Below are positions 27,018-45,800 of a stretch of 46,939 nt of DNA, piece after piece. The translations under genes were made by a program, and so were the position numbers. The notes beneath the pieces are model-generated. The model had not been told where the DNA came from, searched no databases, and saw only the letters and a list, made by a program, of their open reading frames with translations. How positions within the stretch are numbered: position 1 is the stretch's first letter; the number at the start of each line of letters is the position of its first letter. Origin of the DNA: a virus; the IMG/VR virus record IMGVR_UViG_3300045146_000296, positions 1-46,939 of that record, one strand, 5' to 3'.

Positions 27018-28262
27018 TTATGCCCGGACCTCAAAGGTCACAGTCAACTCGCCAAGAGAAGCAAACTCTCCCTCAAGAAGAGTATGGGAGTTGACGATCA
27101 GTCTCTCCCTCTCAGAAGCAGAGAAGGCAGTTGTGAACCCACGCCGGATATAGGTATTGGAGAACATCAGGGACTGATCCTTGTTCTTCATGATCCCCAC
27201 CAGCCCCTGAGTGTTCTCGAGGACTCTTAGCCTCAGCTCCTCCAGATCTACTACCTCTCTAGCCTCTGCATCGCCAAGATAAGTCGCAATAGCCCGCTTG
27301 ATTCCTGCCTCATAGGACCTCTGCTGGGCATCTGTGATCTCCCTGTTGGTCACGACATTCATGTCAATGTCCACATAGACCCTGATGCCTGCCGAGACGT
27401 ACAACTTCAGTCCTGGAATCTGGATGGTGTCTACTCTCCTCTGAACAGCCCGAACCAGATCTGTGTTTGACTCTCCATCAGCCCCAAACACGAAAATGCA
27501 GGCAGTCCCAATCCCATAGTACCCCTTGACCACAGAAATGTTGACTACTCCTGGCACCTCTAGACCCATGAGTTTCGCACGAATGGCGTTGTGCGAGGAT
27601 AAAGTCTTGAAGGCATTGGCAAGCCTGTACCTGTAGAGCTTGTCGTCCTCAACATTCCTGCCATTGAGGACCGGGAAGTAGTTGGTGATTTTCAAGGAGT
27701 TATTGGCGACATCAGTGTAGCCAGTGAAGTTGTGTTCGATCAGGGACATAGCTCCCACGTTCTGGCTAGCTCCAATACTTCTTGCTTGGGCTGAGATGTA
27801 GGCTAGTTTTGAGGTGGCTGGGAGGGTAACGGCAGCTGTGGTTTCGTACTCGATGGGAGTTTGGCCGGCAGGAGTAGCTCTAACACGGATGACGGTACCA
27901 GCAGGAATTGGGATTGCTGCACCACCGTTGATAGTGCCAAAGTCTGTTTCTGTGTAGAAGGCCAGGTTGCGTTCTGAAGAGTCTACTGTAGCCCTTGTAG
28001 CCTCGAGTCTATTGTATTGCCCTACTCCAAGAGATTGACCGATAGCGTCCAGATCCCTGCCGGTAGCTGTGGGAATCTGGGAGGCGAGGAAGGCAGCCCG
28101 GGTATCTTGTTTATCCCGGTAGATCTCAGCAATAACGGCATCAATCAGGGAGCGGGCAGCAGAGTCAGGGCCGTAGTTGGTGATACCTGTACGTGTCTCC
28201 ATTCTCTCCCTGAATTCGTTGTAGAGAGTAGTAGTGTTCTTGACAGAGGGAGACGTAGCCAT
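27018..28262 (-). CDS. Baseplate J-like protein (wedge, gpJ/gp6-type)
   Basis: A 414-residue protein with the Baseplate_J layout. The N-terminal helical part includes YGPDSAARSLIDAVIAEIYR and TATGRDLDAIGQSLGVGQYN, the region where family members read LDxLGxxxGVxR. A central beta part follows with IPAGTVIRVRATPAGQTPIE and ISAQARSIGASQNVGAMSLI. Next come GRNVEDDKLYRYRLAN and a C-terminal alpha/beta part. These proteins form the inner wedges that polymerise around the hub in contractile tails and related injection machines. The position directly after the gp25-like gene is the classical W-J order. The gene starts just before the upstream stop with no gap. Confidence 0.88.
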   Translation of the reverse strand: MATSPSVKNTTTLYNEFRERMETRTGITNYGPDSAARSLIDAVIAEIYRDKQDTRAAFLASQIPTATGRDLDAIGQSLGVGQYNRLEATRATVDSSERNLAFYTETDFGTINGGAAIPIPAGTVIRVRATPAGQTPIEYETTAAVTLPATSKLAYISAQARSIGASQNVGAMSLIEHNFTGYTDVANNSLKITNYFPVLNGRNVEDDKLYRYRLANAFKTLSSHNAIRAKLMGLEVPGVVNISVVKGYYGIGTACIFVFGADGESNTDLVRAVQRRVDTIQIPGLKLYVSAGIRVYVDIDMNVVTNREITDAQQRSYEAGIKRAIATYLGDAEAREVVDLEELRLRVLENTQGLVGIMKNKDQSLMFSNTYIRRGFTTAFSASERERLIVNSHTLLEGEFASLGELTVTFEVRA

Positions 28263-28715
28263 TTAGAGGTTCCTCGCGATCAGCTTATTGTCTCTCATAT
28301 CATAGGAGAACTGCACTGCCACTGGCTGAGTAGAGTCCGGGTGTTTGGCAAGCACAATGATAGCTACAGCATTCTGGGCTGCTGGGACGATCACCACGCT
28401 GGGATTGCATCTCCGGAGCAGATCGTTCCTATTGAACTCTGACATGATGCGGTCCTTCATCTCTGTGGCCGTAGCTTTGGTGTTGGGCATGCCTAGGAAT
28501 CTTGCCAGTCCGACTCCCATCTCTTTTGCCATAGGCCAGTCTCCAGGAGAACTGGACATCAGCTTCAGGATGGTCTGTAACAGGAGTCTCTGCTCGGAGC
28601 TGGTAGTGGTTTCCAGCTCCTTGTTCTCTCCAAGCCTGAAGTCTCCGTTGCTTGTGAAGAAGAGGTCTTTCGAGTACAGATCTGATTGCAGTCCTGAACG
28701 CAGTCTGTTCACCAT
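28263..28715 (-). CDS. gp25-like baseplate wedge protein
   Basis: A 150-residue protein matching the size and layout of gp25/gpW-like wedge proteins. It has an N-terminal GDFRLGENKELETTTSSEQR segment, a helix (LLLQTILKLMSSSPGDWPMA) leading to a glycine turn, then a second helix (ATATEMKDRIMSEFNRNDLL) and a beta hairpin. The family has lysozyme-like folklore from T4 but acts as a wedge component that links the sheath initiator to the J-like protein. The Shine-Dalgarno AGGAGG (28721-28726) lies five bases before the ATG, the strongest in this cluster. The gene abuts the J-like gene without a gap. Confidence 0.78.
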   Translation of the reverse strand: MVNRLRSGLQSDLYSKDLFFTSNGDFRLGENKELETTTSSEQRLLLQTILKLMSSSPGDWPMAKEMGVGLARFLGMPNTKATATEMKDRIMSEFNRNDLLRRCNPSVVIVPAAQNAVAIIVLAKHPDSTQPVAVQFSYDMRDNKLIARNL

Positions 28716-28720
28716 TTTGT

Positions 28721-28726
28721 CCTCCT
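28721..28726 (-). promoter_or_regulatory. Strong Shine-Dalgarno site (AGGAGG) before the gp25-like gene
   Basis: A consensus AGGAGG on the minus strand ends five bases before ATG 28715 and overlaps the last codons and stop of the upstream gene. Such a full consensus predicts high translation of the wedge protein compared with neighbours that rely on stop-start coupling. Confidence 0.65.
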
Positions 28727-29063
28727 ACAGCACAAAGGCACTGCACAGAGCAGCTGTCCTGGCGATTACTGGAAGGTAAGGACCAAGAGGGATCGCAGGA
28801 AGCTGCTTGGGAGGGGCAAGCATTGAGGGAAGCAGGGAGAGGGGGAAAGGAGTGTCCCGCACGAAGGAGGCATAGATGGGAGACAGTGTGTTCAGGTTGA
28901 TTCGGGAGGGCACACCACCTGCGATAGTGACTCCATCCTCCCCAACTGAGAGGTAGGAGAAGTTCCCACATCCGATCCGTACCTCGTCAGCCGCCAGGTA
29001 CTCATAGGCCTTGCAGACCTTGTCATACCGCAGTTTCCGAACCTTGGCTTCTCTATGCTCCAT
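28725..29063 (-). CDS. Small baseplate-region protein of unknown function
   Basis: A 112-residue protein lying between the hub and spike genes and the gp25-like gene. The N terminus is a basic helix (REAKVRKLRYDKVCKAYEYL). A short beta region (IGCGNFSYLSVGEDGVTIAG) follows, and then a proline-rich, hydrophobic C-terminal tail (PPKQLPAIPLGPYLPVIART). The tail could be an extended segment that threads between baseplate subunits, which is inference. It overlaps the upstream gene by one base (TGATG). No family was recognised; a longer ORF in another frame at 28429-28971 crosses two well-supported genes and is rejected. Confidence 0.68.
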   Translation of the reverse strand: MEHREAKVRKLRYDKVCKAYEYLAADEVRIGCGNFSYLSVGEDGVTIAGGVPSRINLNTLSPIYASFVRDTPFPLSLLPSMLAPPKQLPAIPLGPYLPVIARTAALCSAFVL

Positions 29064-29563
29064 CAGGATGAACTCCCTACTGCTTCAGGATCTGACTCTG
29101 AGCCTCCAAGCAATTGTGCATGGCCACCGATAAAGATGCCAGCAATGGAGGAAATGCTGTACCCGATTGTATCAGAGTTGAGATCGAGGTGCCGAGCCAT
29201 CTCGTCTGCTTCTATGAAGGCTCTGCCATTCCTTTCTACATCATTGACACTGGTCCCGTAATACCTCACCTCACACCACATCCCCATGAGACTTGCTGGG
29301 TTGCCATATAGCTCAAACAACTCGTGGTGACTGTGCCCACATCGGACTCTTGCCTTCAACCCTCCAGGCATCTCCACCAGAAAGGTCACATGAGTCATCT
29401 CTGTGACTCTAATCGGGACTTCTTCCGTATCCTGAGGACCAACAACCCCCATCACCCTGCAACCATGAATACGCTTCTCTACCAGAGCATCAGGAAATCC
29501 TGTTCCTCTCTGTACTTTCTCTACCTCTCTGGGAAGACTGCTCCTCCTGTTGGTACGAGCCAT
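29063..29563 (-). CDS. Baseplate-region protein, possible OB-fold
   Basis: A 166-residue protein directly downstream of the giant hub gene, where contractile phages often encode the spike or a hub accessory. The middle alternates strands (KRIHGCRVMGVVGPQDTEEV, VTFLVEMPGGLKARVRCG). A helix and SLMGMWCEVRYYG follow, then GRAFIEADE. The order of strands with the LxGxWxEVxYYG segment is reminiscent of an OB fold. Spike proteins such as gp5 and gp138 begin with OB folds, and DNA ligases carry one at the C terminus. The tail is Gly- and Ser-rich (IAGIFIGGHAQLLGG). Assignment beyond a likely virion or baseplate protein is tentative. Confidence 0.65.
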   Translation of the reverse strand: MARTNRRSSLPREVEKVQRGTGFPDALVEKRIHGCRVMGVVGPQDTEEVPIRVTEMTHVTFLVEMPGGLKARVRCGHSHHELFELYGNPASLMGMWCEVRYYGTSVNDVERNGRAFIEADEMARHLDLNSDTIGYSISSIAGIFIGGHAQLLGGSESDPEAVGSSS

Positions 29564-29564
29564 A

Positions 29565-32500
29565 TTAGTATCCCTTCATCTCAGGTCCAGCAGTTCTATA
29601 ACTTCGCCAGGCAGCCATCCCGGAGTCTCTGAGCTCACTGATCAGGTCTTCTGTGCCCCCAATGGTGTCATCCACAAAGCTGGTCACATTCCCTCGGATA
29701 TGCCGCCACAAAGCCATCGGGTCCTTATATGAAAGACCAGAGACAATAGGGATGCCATTCTTCTCGAGAGGGACTACCGCTACGGCCTCATTCTCAAGAC
29801 ACTTGGCGAAGATGATCGACCCAGCAACAAGCCAGGTCAGAGAGGGCCAATGGAGCTTCTGGAGGCCAGAACTGAGTCCATAGAAGACACCCCCAAGGCC
29901 CACTCCTATGACAGGAGTTAAGAAGACGGATGCCTCCACCAGCCCGAGTGCCGTCATGTTCAGGGCTCCGGCTACCAGTCCCTTTCCAGATGACATGATA
30001 GCCCCGAACCCGCCTGTCGAACCGCGCAGGATCAGGTTTTTCTCGTCAGGGAACATCCTGCTCAGGTCTACTCCCTCTGCGAACAACTGCCCATATCTCT
30101 CTGCGAGGTGCTTCTTCCACTCCTCAGAGGCATAGTCATCTTCATTGGGGAGAACAAGGGCTACCCCATGCTCGCTGAAGGTATGAGACTCCTGAGCAAG
30201 AGCTTCTGCTCGCCTGGCACTTCCTCTGGTCTCTTTAGCAAGAGCTCCTGCTCGCTCGGCACTTGGGTCACCCCAGGCGAGTGGGGTTTTCTCATTGTCC
30301 TTGACTGCCATGATGAAGAGTTTAAGGGCCTCGATCACGGGCCAGGTGGAGATCTCGTTCCCAAAGACCAGGGCTCCGGGCTTGATCTCTGTGAGGAACC
30401 CGGTCTCGTGAGAGAACAAGTGAGTCACCCGCTGAACCTCAACAGGACCTGCCATCTGGTTATAGTCGTCCAGCAGGATACACACGTCTCCACACCGGAT
30501 CCTGGGATTTCCGTAGACCAGCAACTCCCCCCTGTACATCTCTCTGAGCTCATAGATGAGCTGCCCCATCCCGTACCGCAGAGCCATTGTATAGCCTCTG
30601 CAGTTCGGAGAGGCGAGAGTAGCAATATTAGTTTCGGCCTCCGGGATGAAGGTAGAGGCCTTGATCAGGGTGGTTCCTGCTGGAAGAGACTGTGGGTTTG
30701 TAGTCTTGTCCTCATAGTCGTAATAGGTAACGGAAACAGCATTGCCGACGTTGTGCTCTGAAGACACGATGTTGTTGCTGACGATATCCCTGTCAGAAGT
30801 AAGGAGATGATAGCGACGGAAGGGTACGAACCGGGCCTCAAGCCCCTTGAGGTATTCCTCAAGAACCCGGTTGGTGCAATAGGTGGAGACTACCTCGTCA
30901 ACAATTTGTGTATGCTCCGCCTGGACTTTTGCCATCCTCTGTGGACCCAAGGGAGACCCAGTGGTGCTGTCTACTGTCGCTCCAGGAGCAGGAGCAGGAA
31001 GTGAGATCTTCACACTATCGGCAATTCTCTTATATTCCTCCTCCCCATACAGGTAGATGAACTGCTCTCTGGTGATCATCCCCAGAACAAGCTTCTCCCG
31101 GAGATCGTTCATGCGGACGATGAATGAGTTGCTTGCCGGACAGGACCAGTATCTCTGGGAGGGAACACCAAAGAACAAGGTGTATCTGAAGGCATGCCCA
31201 TAGGGCCTCACGCCAAAAGTCCATCCAGGATGCCGCAGGGTCATCTCGTGGAAGATCTCCCAGATAGTCATGTTCATTGGAGTGAACAGGCACTGCTCTG
31301 GCTCTACCCTCTTGTCCAGGACCCAGTCGGGCTTTGTCCAGGCATCCCACCACTTGTCCAGCTGTACAGAGGAGGTAGTCGCCGCCGAGAGAACGGTAGT
31401 ACCGGCAGAGAGGGCGACCCTCCTGATCTTCTCTGTGATCGGGAGCTTTTCCAGCCGCATGTAGTCTTTGGGAGAGGGCGGATAGAGGTTGTCATCCTGA
31501 GGCGACAGGAACATGCAGCTCCTGGTCCTGGCATACCACTTCTTCAGGTTCCCGATAGAGGCGAGGTACATCGGTTCAAAGAGCTGTTCTCTGAGGGCAT
31601 CCACCACCAGGGCCCCACCAACAGCAATGCCGGCTCCCTTGAAGCCGATACTCATTGACCTCCCAGCCAGACCCACACCGACATCCCTGGCTCCCAGAGC
31701 CACACCAGTCACACTAAGATTATATCCCCCTCTATACCCTGAGAGGGCCTGTAGGTATTCCTTCCAATTAGTGGCGGGGAATTCCCGTGAGTGTGCCAGG
31801 AATCCACGAGTTCTCTGCCACGCGGCAGCACCTCCTTCTCTGAGGACAGCAGTACCCTTGCTTCCTACTCCCAACCATCTCCCGAATCTCCCGAAGACTC
31901 CCAAGGTTCCTAATCTAGCTTCTGGGATGAAGGCAGAGCCCACTGTGATGCCGAGCAGGATAGCAGCAGCAAGGAAGGGGTGGTGCAGGATAAAGTTCTT
32001 GGTCCAAGTCAGGGCGGCGAAGTTGTTCAGGAAGCTGTCTCGGTTGTAGTCAACGAAATCCAGGTGGGCGTCCTTTGCCTCTCCAAGCTGGAAGAACTGT
32101 CCCCACTCCCATCTCCCAAAGTGCTTGAGCTCGGGCTCCAACATCATGGAGCCAAGGAGCTGATGTGTAGTGTTATACCGCAATACTGCCGGCTCGTTCT
32201 CGAACTCCTGTCTTCCCTTGATCATCTGAACCAACTCTGCCCCAAAGGACTGTACCGTAATCTCAACAAGATCCCCTTGTGGGTTCCAGGCGATATCCGT
32301 CACCCTCCCCGAGATCAGCACCTCCAGCATATTGGGATCGTTGGAATACCCAGCCCTTAGCTGCACATTGAGTCCTGGTCTGATCACCACAGCTCCGAAG
32401 GGCTGGTCTATGCTGGAGAGCTCTTGGGGTCTGTGATCGGCAGTTACTGTGGAGTCAGGGTGGTCCTTCTGGAGCCTGTCTGTTTTCTTCTTGTTGAAGT

Positions 32501-35500
32501 AGTCCAGGTCCGTGATGACTCCTCTCTTGGAGCCGTCCAGGGTGCCAGAGACATTCTGTAGAGTAATGACTACAGTGTCAGCTGCCACCTCTCTATCAGA
32601 GGTGAAGGTGAACTCCTTGACTCCATTGAAGGAGAAGAAGTCGTCGAAGTTAAGCCATCTGGACTCGAACTCATCTTCCTCCACAAAGTACAACTTGAAG
32701 GTCGGATAGGCCCTCATCAGGCGCATCTTCTGTGAGATGATGTCTTGGCAAGAGTCTTTTACGAGCCTCTTCAGGGAGGAGGGATCGAAGGCATGGGTGT
32801 AGGCGTCAAGAGCTGCTACTCTGGTATCTGTGATAGAGGAATGGATCGTAGTTGCTGTTTCTGGAGTCAGGTAAAGGCCAAGATAGCCCGCTCTAGAGCC
32901 GAACATGGTTTCTACGTCACTGATCCCCTCGACAAGCCTGGTATAGGTCTCCTTGGAACCTCTTGCCGCCCACCAGTAATGAGGATAGCCGTCAGTTGTG
33001 GCCAGGAGAGGGAGTAGTGGATGCAACTCATGCTGGAGAGAGTCCAGGACTTCAAATCGCTGCTTCTTCTCTCTATACTCTGTCTCTGGCCGGGACAGAG
33101 CCATGTAGCTTACATAGGCAGGAATACCAACAATCATTAGAGCCTTTACAGGGTGCTCCTCAGCAGCACTCTTGACCTTGGTGAGAAGGCTCGTGGTGTC
33201 TACTTCCTTCTGGGCCTCTACAAGGGCGGCATTCCCTCTGGCCAGATCAGTATCTAACTGGGAGAGGTCCTTTCCCTGGCTGAAAGGGAGCCCCATGATC
33301 CCCAGATCCTGGACTGTACCATTTGGCCTCTGCCAGCCGACATTGTCAGAACCCTCTGGCTGCCAGGCGAGTCTTGTGATGTCTGGGGTGAGGTCCTCAG
33401 GATCCGTGATCTGGAGTCCCTTGTAATCCTCTGGATCGATCCCCTTTCCCTGCATGAGCTTGAGATGTTTGTAACAGCCGTCTACGATGGGCTCTGCCCG
33501 TCTCTGTACCTCCTCCAGGATCCGGGAGGAGAGAGCTGAGGGGCCATCCTCATATGGGTTCCACATATAGAAGTCAGGGGGAGTCGCATGTAGACTGTCG
33601 GGATAGTAGGGGTGTGCTGGCAACTCCAGGTCTGGGTAGCACTCCAGACCCTTATATTCGTTCTTCCCTTGATCCCAGTTGAGGATCTCCTCCAGCCCAA
33701 ACATCTCCAGGATCGCTGGCTCCTGGAGCAGCAGGTCAGCAAGTCTCGCCAGGAGCTGTCGCAGATAGGCAAGCTTGGCCTTCTCTCTCTCCCTGTCTAC
33801 AGGAAGCCGGGCAAATCTCCGGGGCAGCCTAGCAAGCAACTGCTTGGCTCCGTCCTCTGGAGTGAGAGACCCGGAGCTCACAGCTTTTCTGATCCTGTCT
33901 ACTATCTGGACAACACCATCTTCATAGGCCTGTTGCTGGAGCACCAGCTCACAGAGTCTCTCGAAGTCCTCCTTGTAGTAGATGTGATGAGGATTGAGAG
34001 GACTCCGGTCCCATGTCCCTCTTTCAACCTGTCCCTGCCACCCAATATCCTGAAGCGCCTTATCGAAGTAGGCATAGTACCCCATGGCACTGGCAGCTAC
34101 TCCATCCCTGGTGATGATGTCCTGGAGCAGAGGAATCTCTTCAACAAGCTTGTGAGGCACATCAATAGCTACTGGGAACAGGTTTGTGTAGTAGTCCACT
34201 ACCTCCTGAAGCTTAGAGAGCTGGATGGCAGCCATTTGCTCTCTTGTAATCTCAAACCCATGGAGCAGTAGGACATCACCCAAAAAGGCCAAACCAAGAC
34301 TGGCAATCTCAGCAGGGAAATCGATAACAGCCCTCTGAACGATCGCCCATGGAGCATAGAAAGCCCGCTTTCCGACTACCCATTTCTTGTCCTCGTCTGA
34401 CATCCTTCCAAAGCCAAGGGTCAGGCCGAACCGTTTGCTCTCATCTTCTGGACTGGCGAACAGCCACCAGAAGAACTCTGTGTACATGAGCGGATCTGTG
34501 TCAGGCAGGTCATAGAGCTGACTGGAGATCTCACTGGGGTCGATGGTCTCTGCATCACTGACTTCAGGCTCAGCCATCAACAGCCGGCACTGGCGCAGGA
34601 TTGCCTGGAGAGTGACGTAATAGTCTCTTACAACCTCGAAATCCAGGTCTTGCAGGCTGGTATGTACCTTGTAGAACTCTGTAGCGTCATAGACAGAAAC
34701 GGCCTCCTTGCCGGTAGTCTTGACAGTGTGGGTAGCTACCGTCCCTCCTCCCTGTACTCCTGCAGAGCCTGCAGTTGCTGCCACTCTTGGCATCTGGGGG
34801 GATTCGAGAATCCCGTATAGGATCTGGTTCAGGACATTCGGATCTGTGACGGCAGAGGACCCGAACATCTTTCCTGCACCATACAGATCGTCCAGGAAAG
34901 GCTCTCCAAGCCTTAACTCTCGTAGGAGGGCAGTAGGGTTGGCATCTCTATAGGCCTGAGCATCAGGGAGGGTCTGGTCTGTGGGTGCCAGGAGCTTGCC
35001 GGTACTGAGGGCAAGACCTAGTCTGCCGGCATCAGTCAGGCTCATGTCATAGAGGGCCCGGAGGACCTTCTTTCTCCTCTCCTCGATATCCTCTCTGATA
35101 GACTCTGAAGCCACGATGGCTTCCATGGAGTAGGGATTAGTCTCGTCCAGTACCAGAGAGAGGATGGAGGTACCTGGAGATCCTTCTACTGTCTGAGAGG
35201 AGGCAGCAGAGATGGAGGTCCGCTTCTTGATGTAGTAGGTATCCCGCGCCTCATCGAGCTCAACAGTAGTATCGGAGTCTCTGTAGGAGCCAAAGAGCCT
35301 GGTAATGAAGTGGTCTGTTGAGAGAGTCCAGTTGTCTACCACTGCCCTGAAGGACCTTGAGTTCTCCTGGAGCTTGGCCCTCATGGACTCAAGTAGCGCC
35401 CCAGCAATGCCGGTACCTGTCAGGGACGGGTCCTGATCCAGAAGGGTGAACTCCAGTCCGAAACTAGGCTCGATAGAACCTAAGTGCTGGCAGGTAGGAT

Positions 35501-37718
35501 ATTCCTGGCCAAGGATCGGGATGGCAGAGAGGATATGACGAAGGGATCCTGACACATTTGTCAAGATCGCGCCTTCTTTCATCAAGAGCTCACTCCTCCC
35601 AGCTCTCACAGCCTCATTTGCCACAGTGAGCTGGATCACTCTCCACCAGACATTCTCTACAGTTGCATCCTCCTCATAAGGGATCCACCCTGCCTGATTG
35701 AGGGCGATGAAGTAGTTCTCTACCAGCTCCCTCTCTTCAGTAGTCAAGGAGACCAACTGGCTCTTGGCAGCTGCCATCTGCTCTGGGGATGTACTCGGAC
35801 CCAGACCCTGAGCAAGCTTGTCCTCATCATCCTGGGTCAGGGCAGGAACTGTGGCGGGCTGTGGGGTCTGGAGCTGTGCCTCATACTCTGTGTAAGGCAC
35901 ACCTTGCCCCGGCCTTTCGGGGTCGATCAGCACATACGGGAGTGCCGGGTCTGGATCCAGGGAATAGACCTGCCGGATAGGAGCTGGCGGGTTAGCCAGC
36001 ACATATTGGAGCGCAGTACTCTGTGCCGTGTCTACTGTTTCGACAGCGACTACAGCTGAACTCCCCGACTGGGTAGTGAAGGAAGAGAGCCCTACTCCGG
36101 GAGGCAGAGTCGCCCGCTCTGAATGAGCAGGCTCTAGCAGGAGTACCAGGGGATCGATATCCTGTCCATACTCGAAATGGAGGTGAGGCCCTGTAGCTGT
36201 TCCTGTCTGTCCTACAGCACCCAGATTCTGTCCTCGGTCCAGGTGTTGACCAGCACGTACATCAATCCTGGAGAGGTGTGCATATAGGGAAGTCTGACCA
36301 TCAGCATGTCGGACTCTGACTGCGTTCCCATATCCACCTGAAGCCCCAGCGAATTCAACAGAACCTTCCGAGACGCACCTGACGACTGTTCCCGCAGTGG
36401 CATCCAGATCGATTCCAGAGTGCCACTTGTACTCCCCAGTAACAGGGTGTGTCCTGTAGCCGTAACCACTACTTACGACAGAGCCAGGGACTGGTGGGTA
36501 CATGTTATACAGACCAGCCTCAGAGGCCTGTGGAAGTGCAGTTCCCTCAGTACTTGTACCAGTGTTAGCCGGGTTCCTCCCTAGATAGTCTTCCTTCTTC
36601 CTCTTGAAGCTTCTTGCTTCGGCCTCATTCTGCTGGATAAGGCCCTGGATCTGTTGCTTCTGGAGATCCCGGATCTTTTTGAGGAGAGCAGGTGGCAGGC
36701 TTACCGCTTGGTATTCGTGGAATCTAAAGGTGACCTGCTCGGTGAAGGAAAGCATCCTGGTGATCCAGGACAACTTGATATTGGGAGAGACTTCCGGGGA
36801 GGAGTGTAGCCCATGTACGTGTCTTACTCTGGGAGTTCCGGCAGAGACTGACTCTCCGAGAGTGAAGTATTCCCACTTGTCCCACAAGTCTGCTGCTACA
36901 TCGATCCCGAAATTCTCGTATAGGGCTCTCTGCTGCAGAGAGTTGATGTAGCGGACATAGATATTGGATTGCCTGGGATCCCCGGTAAACTCTGTTGGCT
37001 CCATTACTGGGGGCAGAGGAAGCAGGTCGAAGACAATACCCAGGTGGGCCTTCTCCATCTCGTGGATGGTGTTTCCTCCGGGGATTGATCTCCTCTGTGT
37101 CAGTCTGTTGAATTCAGGGATACTGGGGCTGGCAGACTCGTCTTCAGGAAAGACAGTGGTAGTCTCTTCGCAGCCAGGTCCATAGGTATTGATGGTGACC
37201 TGGACAATCCTCTTCTCAGTACCAGACTCATTTCTCAGGATCTCTACAGGCTTGGTCCGCCACTCCTTCCTGAATAGGTAGTTAAAACAGAAAGGGAAGT
37301 AGTTGAACCACCGGAGATCGAGCTCACAGTTGAAGGTGCCAGGCTTGCCCTTCATAGGAGCCACAGTCATTGAGGTGACTGTAAAGGCCATCAGCTGGGA
37401 CACAGGCCAGTGAGGCACAACTGAGTCCCGGACATACTGGTTCTCTACGAGACAGAAGGGAGAGTGCTGGATCTCGACAATAAGCCGGTGCAGATCCAGG
37501 AGCAGATCTGGTGTGAAGACGATATTCACACTGACCTGGACCATCCCATGGCCACTGGGGACCTTGGTACTCTGCCTAGTGCGGAGGGTTTTCCACTGCC
37601 AGACCAGATCTTCTTTGTGGATCCCGATCTGAGAGGGAGGAATGGAGAGATCGATGTCGTTGATCTGGAAGATATTCCGTCCCTGTTCGAGGGCTCCTCC
37701 TGGGATTCCTGGCAGCAT
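29565..37718 (-). CDS. Giant baseplate hub-like protein with an internal M23 peptidase domain
   Basis: A 2717-residue protein. The N terminus (FQINDIDLSIPPSQIGIHKE, then TLRTRQSTKVPSGHGMVQVS) resembles LysM-region baseplate proteins that join hub and tail tube. Residues about 410-525 are an M23 (lysostaphin-type) metallopeptidase with all expected residues. His433 and Asp437 lie in WHSGIDLD, His481 in YAHLSRI, and His512 and His514 in GPHLHFEY; these enzymes cut peptidoglycan cross-bridges. A long helical section of over 1000 residues follows. Residues about 1770-1830 (VVIRPGLNVQLRAGYSNDPN) and about 2296-2456 (including RCGDVCILLDDYNQMAGPVE) match the gpD/gp27-type hub pattern. Hydrophobic segments lie near 1910-1930 and 2576-2641. 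It likely forms the tail tip that locally opens the cell wall during injection. Typical hubs are under 400 residues, so the size is exceptional. Confidence 0.85.
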   Translation of the reverse strand: MLPGIPGGALEQGRNIFQINDIDLSIPPSQIGIHKEDLVWQWKTLRTRQSTKVPSGHGMVQVSVNIVFTPDLLLDLHRLIVEIQHSPFCLVENQYVRDSVVPHWPVSQLMAFTVTSMTVAPMKGKPGTFNCELDLRWFNYFPFCFNYLFRKEWRTKPVEILRNESGTEKRIVQVTINTYGPGCEETTTVFPEDESASPSIPEFNRLTQRRSIPGGNTIHEMEKAHLGIVFDLLPLPPVMEPTEFTGDPRQSNIYVRYINSLQQRALYENFGIDVAADLWDKWEYFTLGESVSAGTPRVRHVHGLHSSPEVSPNIKLSWITRMLSFTEQVTFRFHEYQAVSLPPALLKKIRDLQKQQIQGLIQQNEAEARSFKRKKEDYLGRNPANTGTSTEGTALPQASEAGLYNMYPPVPGSVVSSGYGYRTHPVTGEYKWHSGIDLDATAGTVVRCVSEGSVEFAGASGGYGNAVRVRHADGQTSLYAHLSRIDVRAGQHLDRGQNLGAVGQTGTATGPHLHFEYGQDIDPLVLLLEPAHSERATLPPGVGLSSFTTQSGSSAVVAVETVDTAQSTALQYVLANPPAPIRQVYSLDPDPALPYVLIDPERPGQGVPYTEYEAQLQTPQPATVPALTQDDEDKLAQGLGPSTSPEQMAAAKSQLVSLTTEERELVENYFIALNQAGWIPYEEDATVENVWWRVIQLTVANEAVRAGRSELLMKEGAILTNVSGSLRHILSAIPILGQEYPTCQHLGSIEPSFGLEFTLLDQDPSLTGTGIAGALLESMRAKLQENSRSFRAVVDNWTLSTDHFITRLFGSYRDSDTTVELDEARDTYYIKKRTSISAASSQTVEGSPGTSILSLVLDETNPYSMEAIVASESIREDIEERRKKVLRALYDMSLTDAGRLGLALSTGKLLAPTDQTLPDAQAYRDANPTALLRELRLGEPFLDDLYGAGKMFGSSAVTDPNVLNQILYGILESPQMPRVAATAGSAGVQGGGTVATHTVKTTGKEAVSVYDATEFYKVHTSLQDLDFEVVRDYYVTLQAILRQCRLLMAEPEVSDAETIDPSEISSQLYDLPDTDPLMYTEFFWWLFASPEDESKRFGLTLGFGRMSDEDKKWVVGKRAFYAPWAIVQRAVIDFPAEIASLGLAFLGDVLLLHGFEITREQMAAIQLSKLQEVVDYYTNLFPVAIDVPHKLVEEIPLLQDIITRDGVAASAMGYYAYFDKALQDIGWQGQVERGTWDRSPLNPHHIYYKEDFERLCELVLQQQAYEDGVVQIVDRIRKAVSSGSLTPEDGAKQLLARLPRRFARLPVDREREKAKLAYLRQLLARLADLLLQEPAILEMFGLEEILNWDQGKNEYKGLECYPDLELPAHPYYPDSLHATPPDFYMWNPYEDGPSALSSRILEEVQRRAEPIVDGCYKHLKLMQGKGIDPEDYKGLQITDPEDLTPDITRLAWQPEGSDNVGWQRPNGTVQDLGIMGLPFSQGKDLSQLDTDLARGNAALVEAQKEVDTTSLLTKVKSAAEEHPVKALMIVGIPAYVSYMALSRPETEYREKKQRFEVLDSLQHELHPLLPLLATTDGYPHYWWAARGSKETYTRLVEGISDVETMFGSRAGYLGLYLTPETATTIHSSITDTRVAALDAYTHAFDPSSLKRLVKDSCQDIISQKMRLMRAYPTFKLYFVEEDEFESRWLNFDDFFSFNGVKEFTFTSDREVAADTVVITLQNVSGTLDGSKRGVITDLDYFNKKKTDRLQKDHPDSTVTADHRPQELSSIDQPFGAVVIRPGLNVQLRAGYSNDPNMLEVLISGRVTDIAWNPQGDLVEITVQSFGAELVQMIKGRQEFENEPAVLRYNTTHQLLGSMMLEPELKHFGRWEWGQFFQLGEAKDAHLDFVDYNRDSFLNNFAALTWTKNFILHHPFLAAAILLGITVGSAFIPEARLGTLGVFGRFGRWLGVGSKGTAVLREGGAAAWQRTRGFLAHSREFPATNWKEYLQALSGYRGGYNLSVTGVALGARDVGVGLAGRSMSIGFKGAGIAVGGALVVDALREQLFEPMYLASIGNLKKWYARTRSCMFLSPQDDNLYPPSPKDYMRLEKLPITEKIRRVALSAGTTVLSAATTSSVQLDKWWDAWTKPDWVLDKRVEPEQCLFTPMNMTIWEIFHEMTLRHPGWTFGVRPYGHAFRYTLFFGVPSQRYWSCPASNSFIVRMNDLREKLVLGMITREQFIYLYGEEEYKRIADSVKISLPAPAPGATVDSTTGSPLGPQRMAKVQAEHTQIVDEVVSTYCTNRVLEEYLKGLEARFVPFRRYHLLTSDRDIVSNNIVSSEHNVGNAVSVTYYDYEDKTTNPQSLPAGTTLIKASTFIPEAETNIATLASPNCRGYTMALRYGMGQLIYELREMYRGELLVYGNPRIRCGDVCILLDDYNQMAGPVEVQRVTHLFSHETGFLTEIKPGALVFGNEISTWPVIEALKLFIMAVKDNEKTPLAWGDPSAERAGALAKETRGSARRAEALAQESHTFSEHGVALVLPNEDDYASEEWKKHLAERYGQLFAEGVDLSRMFPDEKNLILRGSTGGFGAIMSSGKGLVAGALNMTALGLVEASVFLTPVIGVGLGGVFYGLSSGLQKLHWPSLTWLVAGSIIFAKCLENEAVAVVPLEKNGIPIVSGLSYKDPMALWRHIRGNVTSFVDDTIGGTEDLISELRDSGMAAWRSYRTAGPEMKGY

Positions 37719-40700
37719 TAGTCTCCCATCAGTCTTTCTGTATAGGCAGTCGTGATCGGGCGTCTTGTATCATTGATTCTAACGGAGGCACTTCCGCCAA
37801 CGCCATTCAGAAATTGTGTGATGGGAGTCATGCCACTGAAATTCTTGACTTCTCCCCGAATCTGGAAGGCATTTCTCCTGGCAAAGTAGCTTTCCCCAGG
37901 AACCAAGGGCCTTTGCATCAGACCAGCAACCTCATCCTGCCGCTGTACATCCTCCGGTGTCGGGCCAACAGACTCTTGACTGAACAGAGTCCCATTATGG
38001 ATTGCCTTCGTAACCCTGGGGCTTACTACCTCCCCGGGCATGATCATCGCGTCAGGAGAATACCCCTCCCTACCCAACAGAGACCCCAGAGCCATTGTTC
38101 CCAGGGCTCCTAGGGCAATTGGAGTGATGAGCCGCCTGTCAAATCTCGATGTAGCCGCCTTGATCTGGCCCAATCTCGAAGAGACTACCTCCGACAGCCT
38201 CTCCCCTACATCCTGTGGGATTTCTGCCAGTGCAGCAGCTACTTCCGGCGAACCCCTCTGCCGAAAGACGTAGTCATAGGCCTGACGACTGGAGACATTG
38301 CTCCTCTCTACGATGGAGGCAATACCTGCTGCTGTGGTTGAGTAAGCTGCGTTCCTCTCCGCTGTGATGTTTACTACTCTCTGCAGCATCTCGTAGATGG
38401 GCTCAAGACCGAGTTCGTGTCCTTCGAGAGCCCTGAAGATATTCTCGGGGAGGGTCACCCCTGCCTCCTTGAGATATCCAGCCACTTCAGCTCTCTCTAC
38501 CCGGATCCCTCTCAGTAGAGGACTCTCCTTGAACAACAGGTCGTTGAACAGATTCCTCAGCCCGGCGATATCCCTGGTATTGATAGCGTTCTCAACAACA
38601 TCAGAAATCTGCCTTGCATAGTCGAAAGCAATAGGCTGCTTCTTGGCCTTGATTGTAGTGGCTTCCTCAACAGCTCCCAGGAGGTCTAGCAGGTGCCGGC
38701 CAGCCACCTCATCTTCTCCACCGAAACTCATGGTTCCAAGCCTGAGTTTCCCCAGGGCAATATTGATAGGGCCAACCTCCTTGGCGAACTGTTCCTTCAG
38801 AGCTCCCTGTTCGATCTCTCCGATGACATTCGGGGAGATACCAGCTGCCAGAGCCTCCGCTCTCTGTCGCTCCATGCCTCTCTTGGTTTCCTGCAGGAAG
38901 GCAGAGTACGAGAAGGCTTGTCTTATGCGAGAGACAGCTGCATTGGTCAGTGCATCTCTGCCAGCTAACGCCCTTGCTGCCGATTTCCTCCCTGTATTGG
39001 GGAAGAGAAGCATATAGGTATCTTTATCGAAGTCACCCAGCATGTTGGCGACGTTAGAGAGATCGACAGAGTACTTACCACCTCCGTAGTGCACATCTAC
39101 AGGCATGGAAGGAAACCAGAGATGTCCTTCTCCAGCACTCCCAGTGAATTGGGAGATATTCCTGGCCATCTGCCGGAAGAAAGATCTCCGCAGGCCTGCC
39201 CCCTCTCTCCCTGCAAGTCTTGCGATGTCTCCGAATCCGGCGATTGGTGCTCCGGCGAGGGCCTCCATCCGTCCCAAAGTGGATGCCATAGCTGGGACTC
39301 GTCTGACCTCTCTGAACACCTCGTCTGCAGTCCCGAATGCCTGTGTTTCTCCAGGATGTCTGAAGACCTGAACAGGACCAATGTTCCCAGGAGTGAGTGC
39401 TGGGTATCTTCCAGAGAGGGCCACAACCCCAGCCCCCTTTCCTGTCTCCATGCCTGTGAAGAACCGCTGTAGGTTCTGGGCAAGTCCCAACCGAGCTAGG
39501 GTTGTTGCTGCTGGAGGACGAGTACCCTCTGCCAGAGCACTCTCATAAGCCCCCTTGGTATAACTCTTCATGATGTCTATGAAGCCACCAGCATCCATGA
39601 ACAAGGCGCTGCCCTGAGTCCTTGTAAGCACCTCTCCTACTCTTCCCAGACCAGCCTCACTCACCAGATCCAGTCCCAGTCCTGCTGTAGCTCCTGTAGT
39701 GGCAACCCGCATACTTCTGCCAACCAGGAAACCTGTACCGGCCATCTTCCCTCTGAAAACAGAAGCATGTACCTCTCCCAGCAATCCAGCCATCCCCTCC
39801 TTCCAACCGCGCAGAGTACGAGTCATGTGCCCAACGTTCTCGGCATTGACCACACTCATAGAGGAGATTCTGGTCAATATCTGCATCAGATCGTGCATGC
39901 GTCTGACATACTCTGGGAGCACATGAGTAGTGGTACCGCCGGCCCCCTTGATGTTGATTCCAACAGTGTCCCGCAAGAACCTGCCTCCAGGAACGTGGAG
40001 AACGGTCCCCCCAAACACGTCCCTGACGATCCTGCTGAGCACTGTGTTCTCACCAGCCAGATCGAGAAGGAACCCCTCTTCATACTGAGCCAGCAACCTC
40101 CTTGCATTCATGCTGTCAGTGGACCTGATAAACTCTTGCCAGGGCACCCTGGGAAGCCTTCCAGAGAGCTCCAGGTCCACAGGCGACCGGTTCCCCGAGA
40201 TGACTCCCATCATGCCCTGTAGGCTGCGCAGAGCACTCAGCTTGCGTGCCATACCAGGTATCCGGGCAGCAAATCCTCCCACGATTCTGTTGGCCTCCCT
40301 GGCTTCCAGACCCATTCCCATGAGACTGGCTCTGAACATGTTCCTCATCTGAGGCTCCATGGAGGCCCGGATGACACCCCAAGGAGCAGCACCTGGAGAG
40401 AGAGTGGAGGCTCCTACTCCGAACCCTCTTCCTAGGGTCCTGAAGAACTGTCTGTAAGTCGAGTTTTGCGGGCCGCCCCACTTGGTCCTGGCACCAGCAG
40501 TGATCTCTCTTCTCAGGTTCCTGCCCAGACCTGCTCCAAGCATCCCAGCTCCACCCCACCAGACGTGAGCCACAGTCTGAGCGGCAAGAACGGGGTTCTC
40601 AAGTCTTGCAAGAGCTTCCAGTCCGGCACTAGTCATGTAACGGGCACGCACCACATCCGGCATGAGACCAGAGACACCACCCATTCTGGTAGCAATGGCA

Positions 40701-42811
40701 GAACCCATGCTTGCAAAGAAGTCCTTTACATTTACAGGCCCTGTTGTCCCTCTAGCAGTGCCGGCTACAGTCTGTTGGACGAGGAACTGAGCACTCTTGG
40801 TTACGGTATCTGGACCCGTCAAGAGCAGAGCCGCTGGATTGACTCCAAGGGCCTGGACGTTCATGCCCATCCCTCTAAGAATCAGTTCGGCAACCTGCTC
40901 CTCTGTCTGGACGTGAGCCAGAGCTTTGCCCACTGGAGAGAATATCTTCTCTGAACGACGAATTCTCCTCCTCAAGGTCCCCGTGATCTCATAGAAAGTG
41001 GAGCCACTCTCCTCCTCTGCCCTCCTGACTACACCCAACTCAAGACCTGTAACGTCCCTGCGGTTTGGGAGTTTGACAACGCCATTCCCCGAGACCCCCA
41101 AGACTCGTCCGTACTCCCTCATGAACCTTCTTGCCTCTTTGCCTGAGAGAGAGACTCTCTGGTTGGGAGCAGAGAGAAGAGCGTTCAGCATCTTGGTAGG
41201 GGAGGTCTTCATCATGGTAGGGTCGAAGATCTTCTTCTCGATCACCTCTGCCATCTCGATGTTCTGGCCAGTAATGATCGCCTCACCCAGTCCCTTCCCA
41301 AGACCCCACCTGCTTCCCCCTCTCAAGTAGTCAATTATGACTGCCCTGTTGATCCCCCCGATATCCTGAGACCACTCAATCGGCTCTGCCCCAGAGAGAA
41401 TGGAGCCCGAGAAGAGAGGCCCTATCTCCGGCTCCAGAAACAGAGTCTCTCTGCCAACAAACTGCTCTGGTCTCGCTGTTACAGGGACACTGGTCCTGTT
41501 CACAAACCCAGTGTTCCGCATGAGACTCAAGGGATTCAGACCCACATTGCCCAACTTGACGAAGGCTCCACCATGCGGAAGCCTTGTGATAGCTGCATCA
41601 GCTCCTGGATCAAAACCCGGAACATGAGCAGCCGCAAAGGCCCTGAGCCTATGGATCTCGGCACTGGAAAGCCCCTCCCTGGCCATCAGTGTAGTACCAG
41701 CATGCTTCAGAGAGACATTGCGCTGAAGCTGAGCCCGCATGGCTCCACCTGCAGTAAGAGCCGCCTGAGCTCCTCTCGGGAGAACAGCTCCCAACTGCCG
41801 GAGATTCTGTCTGAAAAGCCTTGGATCTACGTGTTCAACCCCACCAGTAGCAGAAGACATCCTCCTGAGCTCCAAGAAGGCAGCATCATAGATATCCCCC
41901 ATCTGCGAACCAGCAGAATTGGCAGCGGCCTCCAGGTCCCCATAAAACCTGTCGAAACTGTAGGCCGTTGAGGTCCCGATCCTGGTGACTGGTGCTTCGC
42001 CAATGCGTTGTGCGTGGACAGGCACAGAGACAAACTGGTTCCCTCGGACACGGACTCTTGCATGTAAGCCCAGGAGGCCTTCTCCTGTGATGTCGGCCTC
42101 TTGTAGGAGCTCTGGAGCCACACCAGTCAACTCTCTGAGCCTTCTAATCCTTCCTGAGACTTCAGGTCCATACACCTCTCCCACGTTACCAGTGAAGGGA
42201 GTAAAGAGCCTGGTAGCAGGAGCAGGAACTGCTGTGATTGGAGCGATCTGCCCCATGAGGCCCCGGGCTCTTTTCCTTGCCTCCACGAAGGCGAGTCTTC
42301 CTGCTGGGGTACTGGTATCCATGAGCTGTCTGACAGTCTCGGACACCATCTGGGTCATATTCTCGCTTACTTTCTGGCCGCTCTCCTGGAAGGCATTATG
42401 GAGTCTGCTCTTCAGGGTGACTCTGGCATTTTCACTCAGATCAAGTTCTGGCGAGTCTAGAGTCTCTATCAGGGAGGAGACGAGGACGTTGAACTCGTCT
42501 GCATTCTTGGCCTCGATGTCCCTGATGTAGTTGCCAGACTGCAGAGCCTCCTGGAGTCTTTCGATGGTGCGCTGGTGGATCCTTTCTTTCGCACGACTTG
42601 AGGTAGAGATCATCTCTCCGACTGTCTCACCCATGTCGCGGAGATGGTTTGTAGACCACCCCATGAGCACTCTGGCATCATTCGACCAGAGTCCTCTCGC
42701 TCCTCGGTAGGCACCATAGGCAAGTGGTGCGGCACTGAGGATGCCAACCATTGTATTGGCGGTACTCGACGCCAGGCCCTCAGGCTCGTCGAATAACCTA
42801 TTCAAGAGCAT
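37718..42811 (-). CDS. Giant virion protein, tape-measure-like by position (second of two)
   Basis: A 1697-residue protein rich in Ala, Gly, Arg and Leu, mostly helical. It has a hydrophobic stretch near the N terminus (VGILSAAPLAYGAYRG, about 22-37), a second near residues 1559-1577 (PIALGALGTMALGSLLG), and many arginine-rich helices. Immediately upstream of the hub gene is where the tape-measure protein is encoded in most tailed phages. Its length would set tail length at about 0.15 nm per residue if it were fully helical. The scarcity of long coiled coils makes an internal ejected protein an alternative. It overlaps the hub gene by one base (TAATG) and the upstream giant gene by 14 bases. 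Confidence 0.72.
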   Translation of the reverse strand: MLLNRLFDEPEGLASSTANTMVGILSAAPLAYGAYRGARGLWSNDARVLMGWSTNHLRDMGETVGEMISTSSRAKERIHQRTIERLQEALQSGNYIRDIEAKNADEFNVLVSSLIETLDSPELDLSENARVTLKSRLHNAFQESGQKVSENMTQMVSETVRQLMDTSTPAGRLAFVEARKRARGLMGQIAPITAVPAPATRLFTPFTGNVGEVYGPEVSGRIRRLRELTGVAPELLQEADITGEGLLGLHARVRVRGNQFVSVPVHAQRIGEAPVTRIGTSTAYSFDRFYGDLEAAANSAGSQMGDIYDAAFLELRRMSSATGGVEHVDPRLFRQNLRQLGAVLPRGAQAALTAGGAMRAQLQRNVSLKHAGTTLMAREGLSSAEIHRLRAFAAAHVPGFDPGADAAITRLPHGGAFVKLGNVGLNPLSLMRNTGFVNRTSVPVTARPEQFVGRETLFLEPEIGPLFSGSILSGAEPIEWSQDIGGINRAVIIDYLRGGSRWGLGKGLGEAIITGQNIEMAEVIEKKIFDPTMMKTSPTKMLNALLSAPNQRVSLSGKEARRFMREYGRVLGVSGNGVVKLPNRRDVTGLELGVVRRAEEESGSTFYEITGTLRRRIRRSEKIFSPVGKALAHVQTEEQVAELILRGMGMNVQALGVNPAALLLTGPDTVTKSAQFLVQQTVAGTARGTTGPVNVKDFFASMGSAIATRMGGVSGLMPDVVRARYMTSAGLEALARLENPVLAAQTVAHVWWGGAGMLGAGLGRNLRREITAGARTKWGGPQNSTYRQFFRTLGRGFGVGASTLSPGAAPWGVIRASMEPQMRNMFRASLMGMGLEAREANRIVGGFAARIPGMARKLSALRSLQGMMGVISGNRSPVDLELSGRLPRVPWQEFIRSTDSMNARRLLAQYEEGFLLDLAGENTVLSRIVRDVFGGTVLHVPGGRFLRDTVGINIKGAGGTTTHVLPEYVRRMHDLMQILTRISSMSVVNAENVGHMTRTLRGWKEGMAGLLGEVHASVFRGKMAGTGFLVGRSMRVATTGATAGLGLDLVSEAGLGRVGEVLTRTQGSALFMDAGGFIDIMKSYTKGAYESALAEGTRPPAATTLARLGLAQNLQRFFTGMETGKGAGVVALSGRYPALTPGNIGPVQVFRHPGETQAFGTADEVFREVRRVPAMASTLGRMEALAGAPIAGFGDIARLAGREGAGLRRSFFRQMARNISQFTGSAGEGHLWFPSMPVDVHYGGGKYSVDLSNVANMLGDFDKDTYMLLFPNTGRKSAARALAGRDALTNAAVSRIRQAFSYSAFLQETKRGMERQRAEALAAGISPNVIGEIEQGALKEQFAKEVGPINIALGKLRLGTMSFGGEDEVAGRHLLDLLGAVEEATTIKAKKQPIAFDYARQISDVVENAINTRDIAGLRNLFNDLLFKESPLLRGIRVERAEVAGYLKEAGVTLPENIFRALEGHELGLEPIYEMLQRVVNITAERNAAYSTTAAGIASIVERSNVSSRQAYDYVFRQRGSPEVAAALAEIPQDVGERLSEVVSSRLGQIKAATSRFDRRLITPIALGALGTMALGSLLGREGYSPDAMIMPGEVVSPRVTKAIHNGTLFSQESVGPTPEDVQRQDEVAGLMQRPLVPGESYFARRNAFQIRGEVKNFSGMTPITQFLNGVGGSASVRINDTRRPITTAYTERLMGD

Positions 42812-45800
42812 CGCGCACCAACCTCATGAGTTCTGGTTCTCTGTCATCATTATAGTAAAGCTGTGCGTTTGTATTTGCGAAGCTTTCCTCTGTATTGACA
42901 CTTAATTCAGCAGGTTGTCCATTGGGCCAGAGATGTCCTGACCTGAACATGAAAGAGAACAGGTTGTTCCTGGTGACACCCGGACCCTCGTAAAGGAAGT
43001 CCGTGGTACCTTCCAGGTACGGTTTCCTTGCGAGGTCTCTCTCCTGGGATTCCCACATCCCAAAGTCGTGGATATCCTGGCCCAGAGTCTCGATGTACTT
43101 CAGCTTCACATCATTGACATCCACTGCCTGGTTCCATCCGATCCAGTCAGGTCTCGGAAAGGAACGTCCCTGAAAGTAGGACTGAGCATCTGCATATCGA
43201 GCTGCCAGATACTGATCTCCAGCTGCCGTTGGAGAGCCTGCATATAGGGTCTGGTCCTCGGCATCGATCCTCTGCCAGATGGTCTTATAGAGCTCTACCT
43301 GATCTGCTGGGACCATGTCCAGGATCCGGTCTCGATCCCTTCCCTGAGCAGCTGCAAAGGCATCAAAGAACTTCTTCTCTCCTGCAGGCAAGGCCATGTA
43401 AACAGACAAGGGGTCACCCTTTGGGTTGACTCCCTGAACTGTACTACCTGCCCTGTCCTTGGCCTGCTGAGCCAGATACGGGTTGTGAGCCAGTTCTGCC
43501 TGCTTGGCCACGATCATCCACTTGACGAACTCCAACCTATCGAAATACTCCCCTATCTCATCAGCTTCCTGTCTCCAGGCCGGTTTTCCTCGCATCCCAA
43601 TGAAGTGTGCAGCACTGTAGAATGCCGGCCTGAACCAGTCCCTGATAGGTTTGTTCCAGAAGGACATTGGGGTTCCATAGAGCCGCTCGTACTCATACTG
43701 CTCTATTGGCTGTCTGTTAGAGAAGAGTTTCTGGACAGGTCTGAAGCCCATTGGGATCATGTACTCAACAGGAGCTACCGCCTCCCGGAACAAGCCTGTT
43801 GCGGCAGCCCAAGCTCCCTGAGTCTTGGGCGAGATCCCTGGGATCTCGATAGCCCTGGGATCGGCCATTCCCATGCCCTGGCCGACCATCTTCTTGTTCA
43901 GGTCCTTATCGACCTGATCCATGAAGGCGTTCTCTCTCTCTGTGGTCTGCCCGGCCATGCGAGCCTGGTAAAGCTGTTGTCTTGTGCGCTGGGTCTCATT
44001 GGAGTAGGGGGCTACATCAGTGAGGATGGAGTACTGGTAGACAAGAGGATACTGCTCTGGCTGGATGTCCCGAAGCTCAGGATGAATTGCTGTATAGCCA
44101 GGTCCTGGGAGTCTTACATCTCCTTCGTGGATGAGTTTGTAGGGATCGCCATAGTGGAACTTCGTAGGAAGCCACTCTGGCATGGTATTTTCGATAGGGT
44201 TGTACTTTTGCTCTTCGCTCCTGGGCCTTGGCAGGAACCTTCTCAGGACTTCTGTTTGTCCGAAGAAGCCACCCAGGTTCATATCCCACCATGCCTCTAC
44301 TGGAGAGGTGAGGGAGGCTGATGTGGCGAGTATCGGTCTCTGGGCAGCATAGACCTGAGAGCCAGTGATAGTCTCAGTAACCAGGTTGGCGAGCCATCCC
44401 CACATACCAGAGAGCTCTTTGAACTGGTAGTCCATCCTTGCCAGCTGAATAGCAGAGGTATAGGGGCTCTTGGGTTTGCCCGGAACCAGTCCCCCTAACT
44501 TGTATGCCGGCTTATCGGGTTCAGGTGGGTAGGCAAACTCGATATTTCCCTTGCTATACCTTGCCCAATCTCCAACATGCATGAGTCTTGGGGGCTTGAT
44601 GAATCTGCCAAGGGTGGAGCCTAGAAGACCACCAATAACCGGGATGTTCTCGAAGGCAGTACCTGTGATCGGGTAGGGTCTGTCAGTATAGGTTCTCCTC
44701 TCAAGGCCATAAGTGAAGTTCTCGATGAAGAACTTCCTGATGGGAGAGATGGCGTCTTCGTCCTCTCCCCAGATCGCTCTCTCCTTGGCCCGAGTCATGG
44801 ACAGGACATAAGAGTGTGGTCTGTAGTAGAGGGTGTCAGTGCCCTCGAAGGGAGTACCACCTCCCTCCCAATAACGACCACGCTTTACAGGCACCATCTG
44901 GCGACCAGCATAGATGTCTGATAACTCTCCAGGTCCCTCCATCGATCCTAGAAACCCACCCGTCAGGATCCCATGTGCCGCAAAGCCAGCAGCGAATAGG
45001 AGTCCTGTACGCCCCAGGATCTTCCTGAACCCATGGGCGCGCATGACTCCCTGGTACTCCCGTCCCTCGAAAGGAGCTCCCAGAAGCCCGTGCCAGATCC
45101 GGGTGCCAACTTGCTCCATCTGGCGGCCAATAGTTGCCCAGATATCAGTCCTGCCTCCCCACCTGCTTCCAATCTCGTCCAATCTAGCGACAAGAGACTG
45201 AGTCAGGGCGTTATTCTCACTCCATTCTCTGTGCCCCTGAAGCGCATGCTGCCACATGGCAGCCATCTGATCCATCCTGGTTCCCCAGGTGCCAGCTTGT
45301 ACTGCTCTTCCCTGGAGAGTAGCCATCAGCTGCTGACGCTTCAGGAACCTCCCGGGCAGACGAGAATGTCTCATCTGGTTCAGCTCTGTCGAGCTTATTT
45401 CTGGAAATCCACCCGCCTCGACAGCCTGCCCTATAGACTCCCAGAAGATATCCCTCGCAGAGATAGGGGCACGGAATTGGGCCCTCTCCCCCATGACCCC
45501 AATCCTACTCTCCAAAAACTGAGGCAACCTGAAGTCGAGCCTTCTACCCGTCCTGTACCCGAACCTGGAGTATCCGGCAATGGCAGTTCCAAGACCTACA
45601 AGGGCTCCAGTCTTCCAGTCAGTGACACCTGGAAACAGGCCCTCAAGCAGCCTTCTGTAGGCGCTCATGCCCGTAACGGCACCTACTCCTGCCCTCCCTA
45701 TAGACAGGTAGGTCCCTGAGGTCCTGATCCCGGGCCAGACACCCTCCCTGAAACCAGGGAGGACAAGCTGTCCCCCGAAAGACAGTAGTCCTGCAACCAG

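Follow-up and report, generated by a model that had tools for sequence, protein, structure and literature searches.

A giant phage baseplate hub protein with an M23 peptidase between two tube-like domains

A single viral open reading frame that appears to join a tail hub to a cell wall peptidase raises the question of what such a protein builds, and of whether its parts remain together. The frame, P0001, lies in IMG/VR record IMGVR_UViG_3300045146_000296, a metagenomic fragment of a virus; the window analyzed here is the whole stretch of 46,939 nt. An earlier note on this DNA had proposed a hub protein with a complete M23 peptidase embedded near its N terminus.

The gene and its neighborhood

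The giant hub gene extends over 29565..37718 on the minus strand, the strand being absent from the earlier note. It begins with ATG and contains no internal stop in 2,717 codons, a length over which random codons of this composition should include about 110 stops. The single chain of 2717 residues that had been described is thus borne out. The start codon shares bases with the stop of the upstream gene (TAATG), which encodes a 1697-aa protein (37718..42811, minus strand). This protein is in the tape-measure position, directly before the hub like orf146 of 0305phi8-36, and was matched only in contig L005. Beyond it is a 1372-aa homologue of a virion structural protein of the ME3_35 type (42798..46916, minus strand). 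Directly after the hub, in the position of a spike, is the gene of a 166-aa protein (29063..29563, minus strand), which is assigned by position and had no family match in Pfam or PHROG. Downstream are a gp25/W-like baseplate wedge (28263..28715, minus strand; phrog_25235, E 1e-8; phrog_43, E 4e-5) and a J-like baseplate wedge (27018..28262, minus strand; PF04865, E 3.7e-18). The position between the tape-measure-position ORF upstream and the gp25-like and J genes downstream is that of a hub gene. P0003, P0002, the J gene and further baseplate genes are common to this window and L005. A 112-aa protein encoded at 28725-29063 (minus strand), after the 166-aa protein, has a glycine-rich, spike-like middle (VRIGCGNFSYLSVGEDGVTIAGG) and no family match.

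A gp27-type hub fold

Two parts of the protein were modeled with AlphaFold, residues 1-960 (whole model pLDDT 57.4, pTM 0.53) and residues 1600-2500, the latter from an alignment with 12 relatives (pLDDT 57.5, pTM 0.57). Both models have low mean confidence (pLDDT 57, pTM 0.53-0.57) and shallow alignments (14 and 13 rows); the modest overall confidence of the 1600-2500 model is due to long inserts that are poorly modeled. Its significant Foldseek matches were hub, VgrG and tail-tip proteins, and the VIA matches listed for it were likewise hub, spike or tail-tip proteins, with Z scores from 24.0 to 10.0. The best VIA-align comparison was with the Milano hub 8fqc_C1 (Z 24.0, 319/326 residues, 3.4 Å), followed among other hubs by those of Mu (9ki1_G, Z 23.7), HFTV1 (9h4p_BD, 23.0) and T4 (gp27, 1k28_D, 17.2). 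Domains 1 and 3 of a gp27-type hub were recognized as two tube-like domains over residues 1671-2451 (30366..32708, minus strand), a hub of the gp27/gpD/gp44 type. Hub-like segments had been proposed earlier, and a check for a hub fold in 1770-2460 returned these matches. A hydrophobic insert at about 1885-2140 lies within the hub and is common to P0001 and L005. P0001 is best read as the hub protein in the baseplate of a phage with a contractile tail, of the 0305phi8-36/ME3 type, and would presumably be a trimer in the virion.

The M23 peptidase

Peptidase_M23 (PF01551) is the sole Pfam family in P0001, found at residues 433-519 (E=1.8e-27, 95.8 bits, cut-off 28.7). From the Pfam match, the alignment to solved enzymes, the fold match and the site residues, the peptidase fold was placed at residues 411-526 (36141..36488, minus strand). 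The five site residues named beforehand, H433, D437, H481, H512 and H514, are all present at exactly those positions, so that the complete M23 domain near the N terminus is confirmed. They fall in the HxxxD and HxH motifs, which line up with those of solved M23 enzymes, and the fold is of the LytM type (Z 15.3, 109 aa, 2.3 Å), which is consistent with zinc geometry at the level of sequence motif and overall fold. The core has a pLDDT of about 84-90 in the model of residues 1-960, and low-confidence linkers lie on either side of it (378-409 and 530-657). Judging from its sequence, this domain would cleave peptidoglycan. By sequence, the best solved relatives, 3slu and 6muk, come from Neisseria; by fold, the matches include StM23, LytM, lysostaphin and EnvC, an inactive LytM domain. 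Since Gram-negative and Gram-positive type enzymes both match well, the host and its wall chemistry are not readable from the M23 domain, and its proposed value as a clue to the host wall did not hold. The designation "M23 tape-measure protein" was considered and rejected, since the only part matched by tape-measure families of the PHROG list is M23.

Two tube-like domains flank the peptidase

The remaining matches listed for the model of residues 1-960, besides many M23 enzymes, span residues 15-864 and skip the M23 domain. They are proteins of the tube type, and in most of them one chain holds two tube domains. The first tube-like domain, D1, comprises residues 12-151 (37266..37685, minus strand) and is defined by profile (E 7e-41), fold and a pLDDT mostly of 84-93; the second, D2, comprises residues 692-860 (35139..35645, minus strand) and is defined by profile, fold and homology to D1. 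With deep profiles the two domains were homologous (hhalign probability 93.8, E 1.7e-7); the comparison with shallow profiles of seven and six rows was not significant. D1 and D2 together best matched HFTV1 9fkb_BA (Z 14.3, 256/284 residues, rmsd 5.3 Å), with further matches to P74-26 (Z 11.2), T5 (11.1), DT57C (11.0) and SH-Ab15497 (10.5). The tube identity of D1 and D2 rests on these folds, since a search of solved structures with the D1 and D2 sequence profiles found no relatives.

Chain 9fkb_BA comprises residues 2-285, in keeping with the length of HFTV1 gp41 (285 aa). Gp41 is the baseplate-tail connector, a pseudo-hexameric trimer whose chains have two homologous domains each, and it lies between the trimeric hub and the last ring of the tube (PMC12494034). 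The HFTV1 gene order of tape measure (gp40), connector (gp41) and hub (gp44) parallels the order here of tape-measure-position protein, D1-D2 and hub. Thus, P0001 probably unites a connector ring and a hub ring in a single chain. This reading of the models draws on fold, internal homology and order, since the sequence comparison with gp41 was uninformative (D1 and D2 profiles against the single gp41 sequence by hhalign, E about 0.5, a weak value). The N-terminal adaptor of the earlier note is present and is now read as this tube-like connector ring. D2 overlaps weak matches to DUF6046, a Pfam family of unassigned function, in three relatives (protein residues 947-989 of L018, 942-987 of L070 and 1113-1156 of L082), and this family may be a tube-like connector domain.

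A conserved frame with exchanged enzymes

No matches were found when viral contigs were searched with the whole of P0001 as a single sequence. Scans of IMG/VR with hub alignments gave 59 and 18 loci, with a few contigs recurring, and one further family contig was found in a Clostridiales genome. ORF lengths in the family run from about 1,160 to 4,026 aa, and truncated or split copies are among the short ones. Among cultured phages, the best relatives are ME3_37 of Acinetobacter phage ME3 (2329 aa, annotated "baseplate hub protein"), CDS0032 of Moorella phage MTATph1 (2225 aa, "endolysin") and gp35 of Bacillus phage KLEB27-3 (2326 aa, "putative baseplate protein"); no literature on MTATph1 or KLEB27-3 was found.

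Profiles of D1, D2, hub domain 1 and hub domain 3 were compared with 72 family proteins, some of them from duplicate contigs. All four parts were found in 57 of the 72, and in 56 of these 57 the order was D1-D2-hub1-hub3; the exception, L038, appears to lack a true N terminus. The profiles were built without MTATph1, KLEB27-3 and most of L068-L085, which nonetheless gave strong matches; L074 and L075 duplicate the contigs L018 and L013, which did enter profile building.

The enzymes attached to this frame differ among relatives. The hub of L005 (2959 aa), the closest relative, aligns with P0001 in blocks 16-323 and 642-945 at 38% and 31%, and in the M23 slot it has a weak Phage_lysozyme2 match (422-572, E 0.0036; 17.9 bits, below the Pfam curated cut-off of 28.2). 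An M23 domain lies between D2 and the hub in L006, L007, L008 and ME3. SNase or LysM stands ahead of D1 in L013 and L018, and SLT lies within the hub in L034 and L060 (L060 residues 2438-2513). MTATph1 has a weak match to VanY at its C terminus. The differing enzymes, together with the low-confidence linkers, fit a tethered and exchangeable M23 domain.

Several further observations concern individual members. In L026, L027, L043, L044, L046 and L052 and in L012, L016 and L062, the hub ORF stops a little past hub domain 1 or begins just ahead of domain 3; the giant hub of those contigs may be encoded by two genes or broken up by an insertion. A subfamily of the L014 type (for example L014, L017, L031 and L036) has hubs of about 3,400-4,000 aa in which an insertion of some 1,300-1,600 residues separates hub domains 1 and 3; an SNase-like motif near the C terminus is present in many hubs of this type. 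The hub ORF of L060 (4109-15955) contains two intein-like insertions (LAGLIDADG/Hint) at residues ~1288-1940 and 2917-3177.

The insert and the C terminus

Between D2 and the hub is an insert of residues 865-1650 (32769..35126, minus strand), delimited by sequence; L005 aligns over 1255-1959. A YPDLELP...PDFY stretch near 1370-1400 of the insert is also present in relatives. A helical insert of more than 1000 residues had been proposed; an insert is indeed present, but it is about 790 residues long, because residues 692-860 are a beta-rich domain.

The hydrophobic segments of P0001 lie at 2588-2616 near the C terminus (29871..29957, minus strand), at 1908-1934 in the hub insert and, weakly, at 1134-1152. 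In P0001 alone their count does not exceed that in shuffled sequences (mean 3.9). The C-terminal segment recurs at the same place family-wide. Nearly all members with an ORF reaching the end have a PLxxxGxPxxxGL-like motif, in P0001 PLEKNGIPIVSGL at residues 2650-2662 (29733..29771, minus strand), and a hydrophobic, often Ala/Gly-rich stretch stands at most 115 residues before it. Among 24 selected members, no other part of the protein is more hydrophobic than this stretch in 14, and it ranks in the top tenth in 21. Of the plural C-terminal hydrophobic segments suggested earlier, that at 2588-2616 is retained; the others are internal. Possible contacts of this conserved hydrophobic module are the tape measure, the lumen (as a plug) or a membrane.

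Comparison with known systems

Giant hubs that carry wall-degrading domains were already known, since the lineage of P0001 was described in 2007: gp147 of 0305phi8-36, with homologues BtI1 and BwK1, was presented as a "hyperplastic" gp27 hub, a giant hub with fused transglycosylase, NLPC and M23 domains (PMC2147016). P0001 belongs to this lineage, as far as the published domain description allows comparison; the relation runs through that description and through ME3_37, which P0001 matches at E 3e-7 and which is annotated as a homologue of the 0305phi8-36 hub. The hub takes up 781 of the 2717 residues in P0001 and about a quarter in the gp147 type, and an M23 domain is present in addition. As in gp147, gp27 domains 1 and 3 lie in a far larger chain with wall-degrading domains attached, the hub follows the tape measure gene, and enzymes are exchanged between relatives (PMC2147016). 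The transglycosylase of gp147 is N-terminal and its NLPC and M23 domains C-terminal according to that account, whereas the M23 domain of P0001 lies between two tube-like domains. No mention of D1 and D2 or of the C-terminal module was found in the part of the gp147 description available (PMC2147016). The 2007 idea of conserved assembly domains combined with exchangeable domains fits these data and is extended here to defined positions. With gp147 as precedent and a family of dozens of proteins that reach about 4,000 aa, the joining of a giant hub to a wall enzyme is less unusual than had been supposed.

ME3_37, MTATph1 CDS0032 and KLEB27-3 gp35 have the D1-D2-hub1-hub3 frame and a similar gene neighborhood, with 20-30% identity in shared blocks. 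Unlike P0001, ME3 has SNase and M23 between D2 and the hub, MTATph1 has the weak C-terminal VanY and, by eye, an SNase-like N terminus, and KLEB27-3 has an SNase-like N terminus. HFTV1 gp41 and gp44 resemble P0001 in a homologous pair of tube-like domains, in the fold of the hub and in the order of tape measure, connector and hub; however, they are separate proteins with no M23 domain reported in either, from a virus with a non-contractile tail and an archaeal host (PMC12494034). In the T5 tail tube protein pb6 a duplicated tube domain likewise gives a pseudo-hexameric trimer, but it repeats along the whole tube, with no hub fusion and no enzyme between the domains (PMC5717097). A hub fold and a wall hydrolase also share one chain in phi812 ORF56 (9euf_E, C51 peptidase) and in the tail-associated lysin Gp16 of NF5 (9m7n), both of which are shorter than P0001 at about 800-915 aa. 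The NF5 enzyme is likewise M23, but lies at the C-terminal end (chain 776-898).

A two-ring tail tip and its alternatives

Taken as a whole, P0001 is in our judgment quite probably a two-ring tail-tip hub of a contractile phage with an exchangeable M23 cassette and a C-terminal module. D1 and D2 of three chains would form a pseudo-hexameric connector ring docked on the last tail-tube ring, and residues 1671-2451 a gp27-type hub ring beneath it that would serve as the attachment site of the spike. The M23 cassette would hang on probably flexible linkers between D1 and D2; once sheath contraction has driven the tip into the envelope, it could cut peptide cross-links locally, while the hydrophobic C-terminal module would touch the tape measure, the lumen or the membrane. 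We infer the stacking of the rings, their position in the virion and the timing after contraction. The earlier proposal that hub, intact M23 site, adaptor and hydrophobic C-terminal segment are combined in one chain stands, shorn of its claim to unusualness and of the host-wall clue.

Other explanations bear on whether the chain is genuine and stays whole. Because the window is a metagenomic fragment, P0001 could be two adjacent genes fused through an assembly or frameshift error, but this is contradicted by independent contigs with the same single ORF and the same order and is extremely improbable; in particular L005, an independent contig with like architecture and another enzyme, speaks against an assembly chimera. 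A genuine chain might still be a precursor, fused only before assembly and then cleaved into connector, free tail lysin and hub. The low-confidence linkers beside M23 and the 790-residue insert that parts D2 from the hub would suit such processing, and ORFs that end after hub domain 1 or start before domain 3 indicate that separate parts are possible, but no cleavage site was identified and the linked order is kept in nearly all members with the four parts. We regard cleavage as quite unlikely.

The identity of the domains can be questioned as well. It is unlikely, given the evidence from fold and order, that D1 and D2 are generic tube-like decoration or wedge domains with no connector ring between tube and hub: the best match does have an rmsd as high as 5.3 Å and lacks sequence support, but the non-M23 matches listed are tube-type proteins spanning both domains, the two are mutually homologous, and HFTV1 has the same succession of tape measure, connector and hub. 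Degenerate LytM domains do not retain all catalytic and zinc-site residues. With all five retained in P0001, and with other wall-degrading enzymes in the same protein of relatives, it is very unlikely that the M23 domain has lost its peptidase activity and persists as a relic with a structural or regulatory role, as the occurrence of inactive LytM domains such as EnvC among the near fold matches might suggest.

If the two-ring reading of P0001 is true, a connector ring and a hub ring are fused in one gene with defined slots for lysin exchange, and the large size of proteins of this type is partly explained. The fusion of a connector ring to the hub, the placing of the enzyme between the two connector halves and the C-terminal module seem to be new, as we did not find them described in the open literature. 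A more speculative and rather doubtful extension is that the one chain is a nearly self-contained penetration device, with two rings, a swappable lysin between the connector halves and a C-terminal module that enters or seals against the membrane, and that the lineage changes its attack on the wall by swapping cassettes in a fixed scaffold.

Genes of the P0001 type are often annotated "endolysin" (phrog_20474, MTATph1), yet their conserved part is a tail-tip scaffold. Phrog_20474, labeled "endolysin/lysis", matches the hub part of P0001-family proteins, as in CDS0032 of L003, so that hubs of this family are being annotated as endolysins.

Sugar-modification genes in the window

A group of sugar-modification genes at 4252-8684 adjoins the tail genes. 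It encodes a fused GT9/GT4 glycosyltransferase (6630-8684), a GDP-mannose 4,6-dehydratase (5656-6630) and a sulfotransferase (5000-5656), all on the minus strand, and an FkbM-type methyltransferase (4252-5013) on the plus strand. The products of this group may act on tail fibers or on the host surface.
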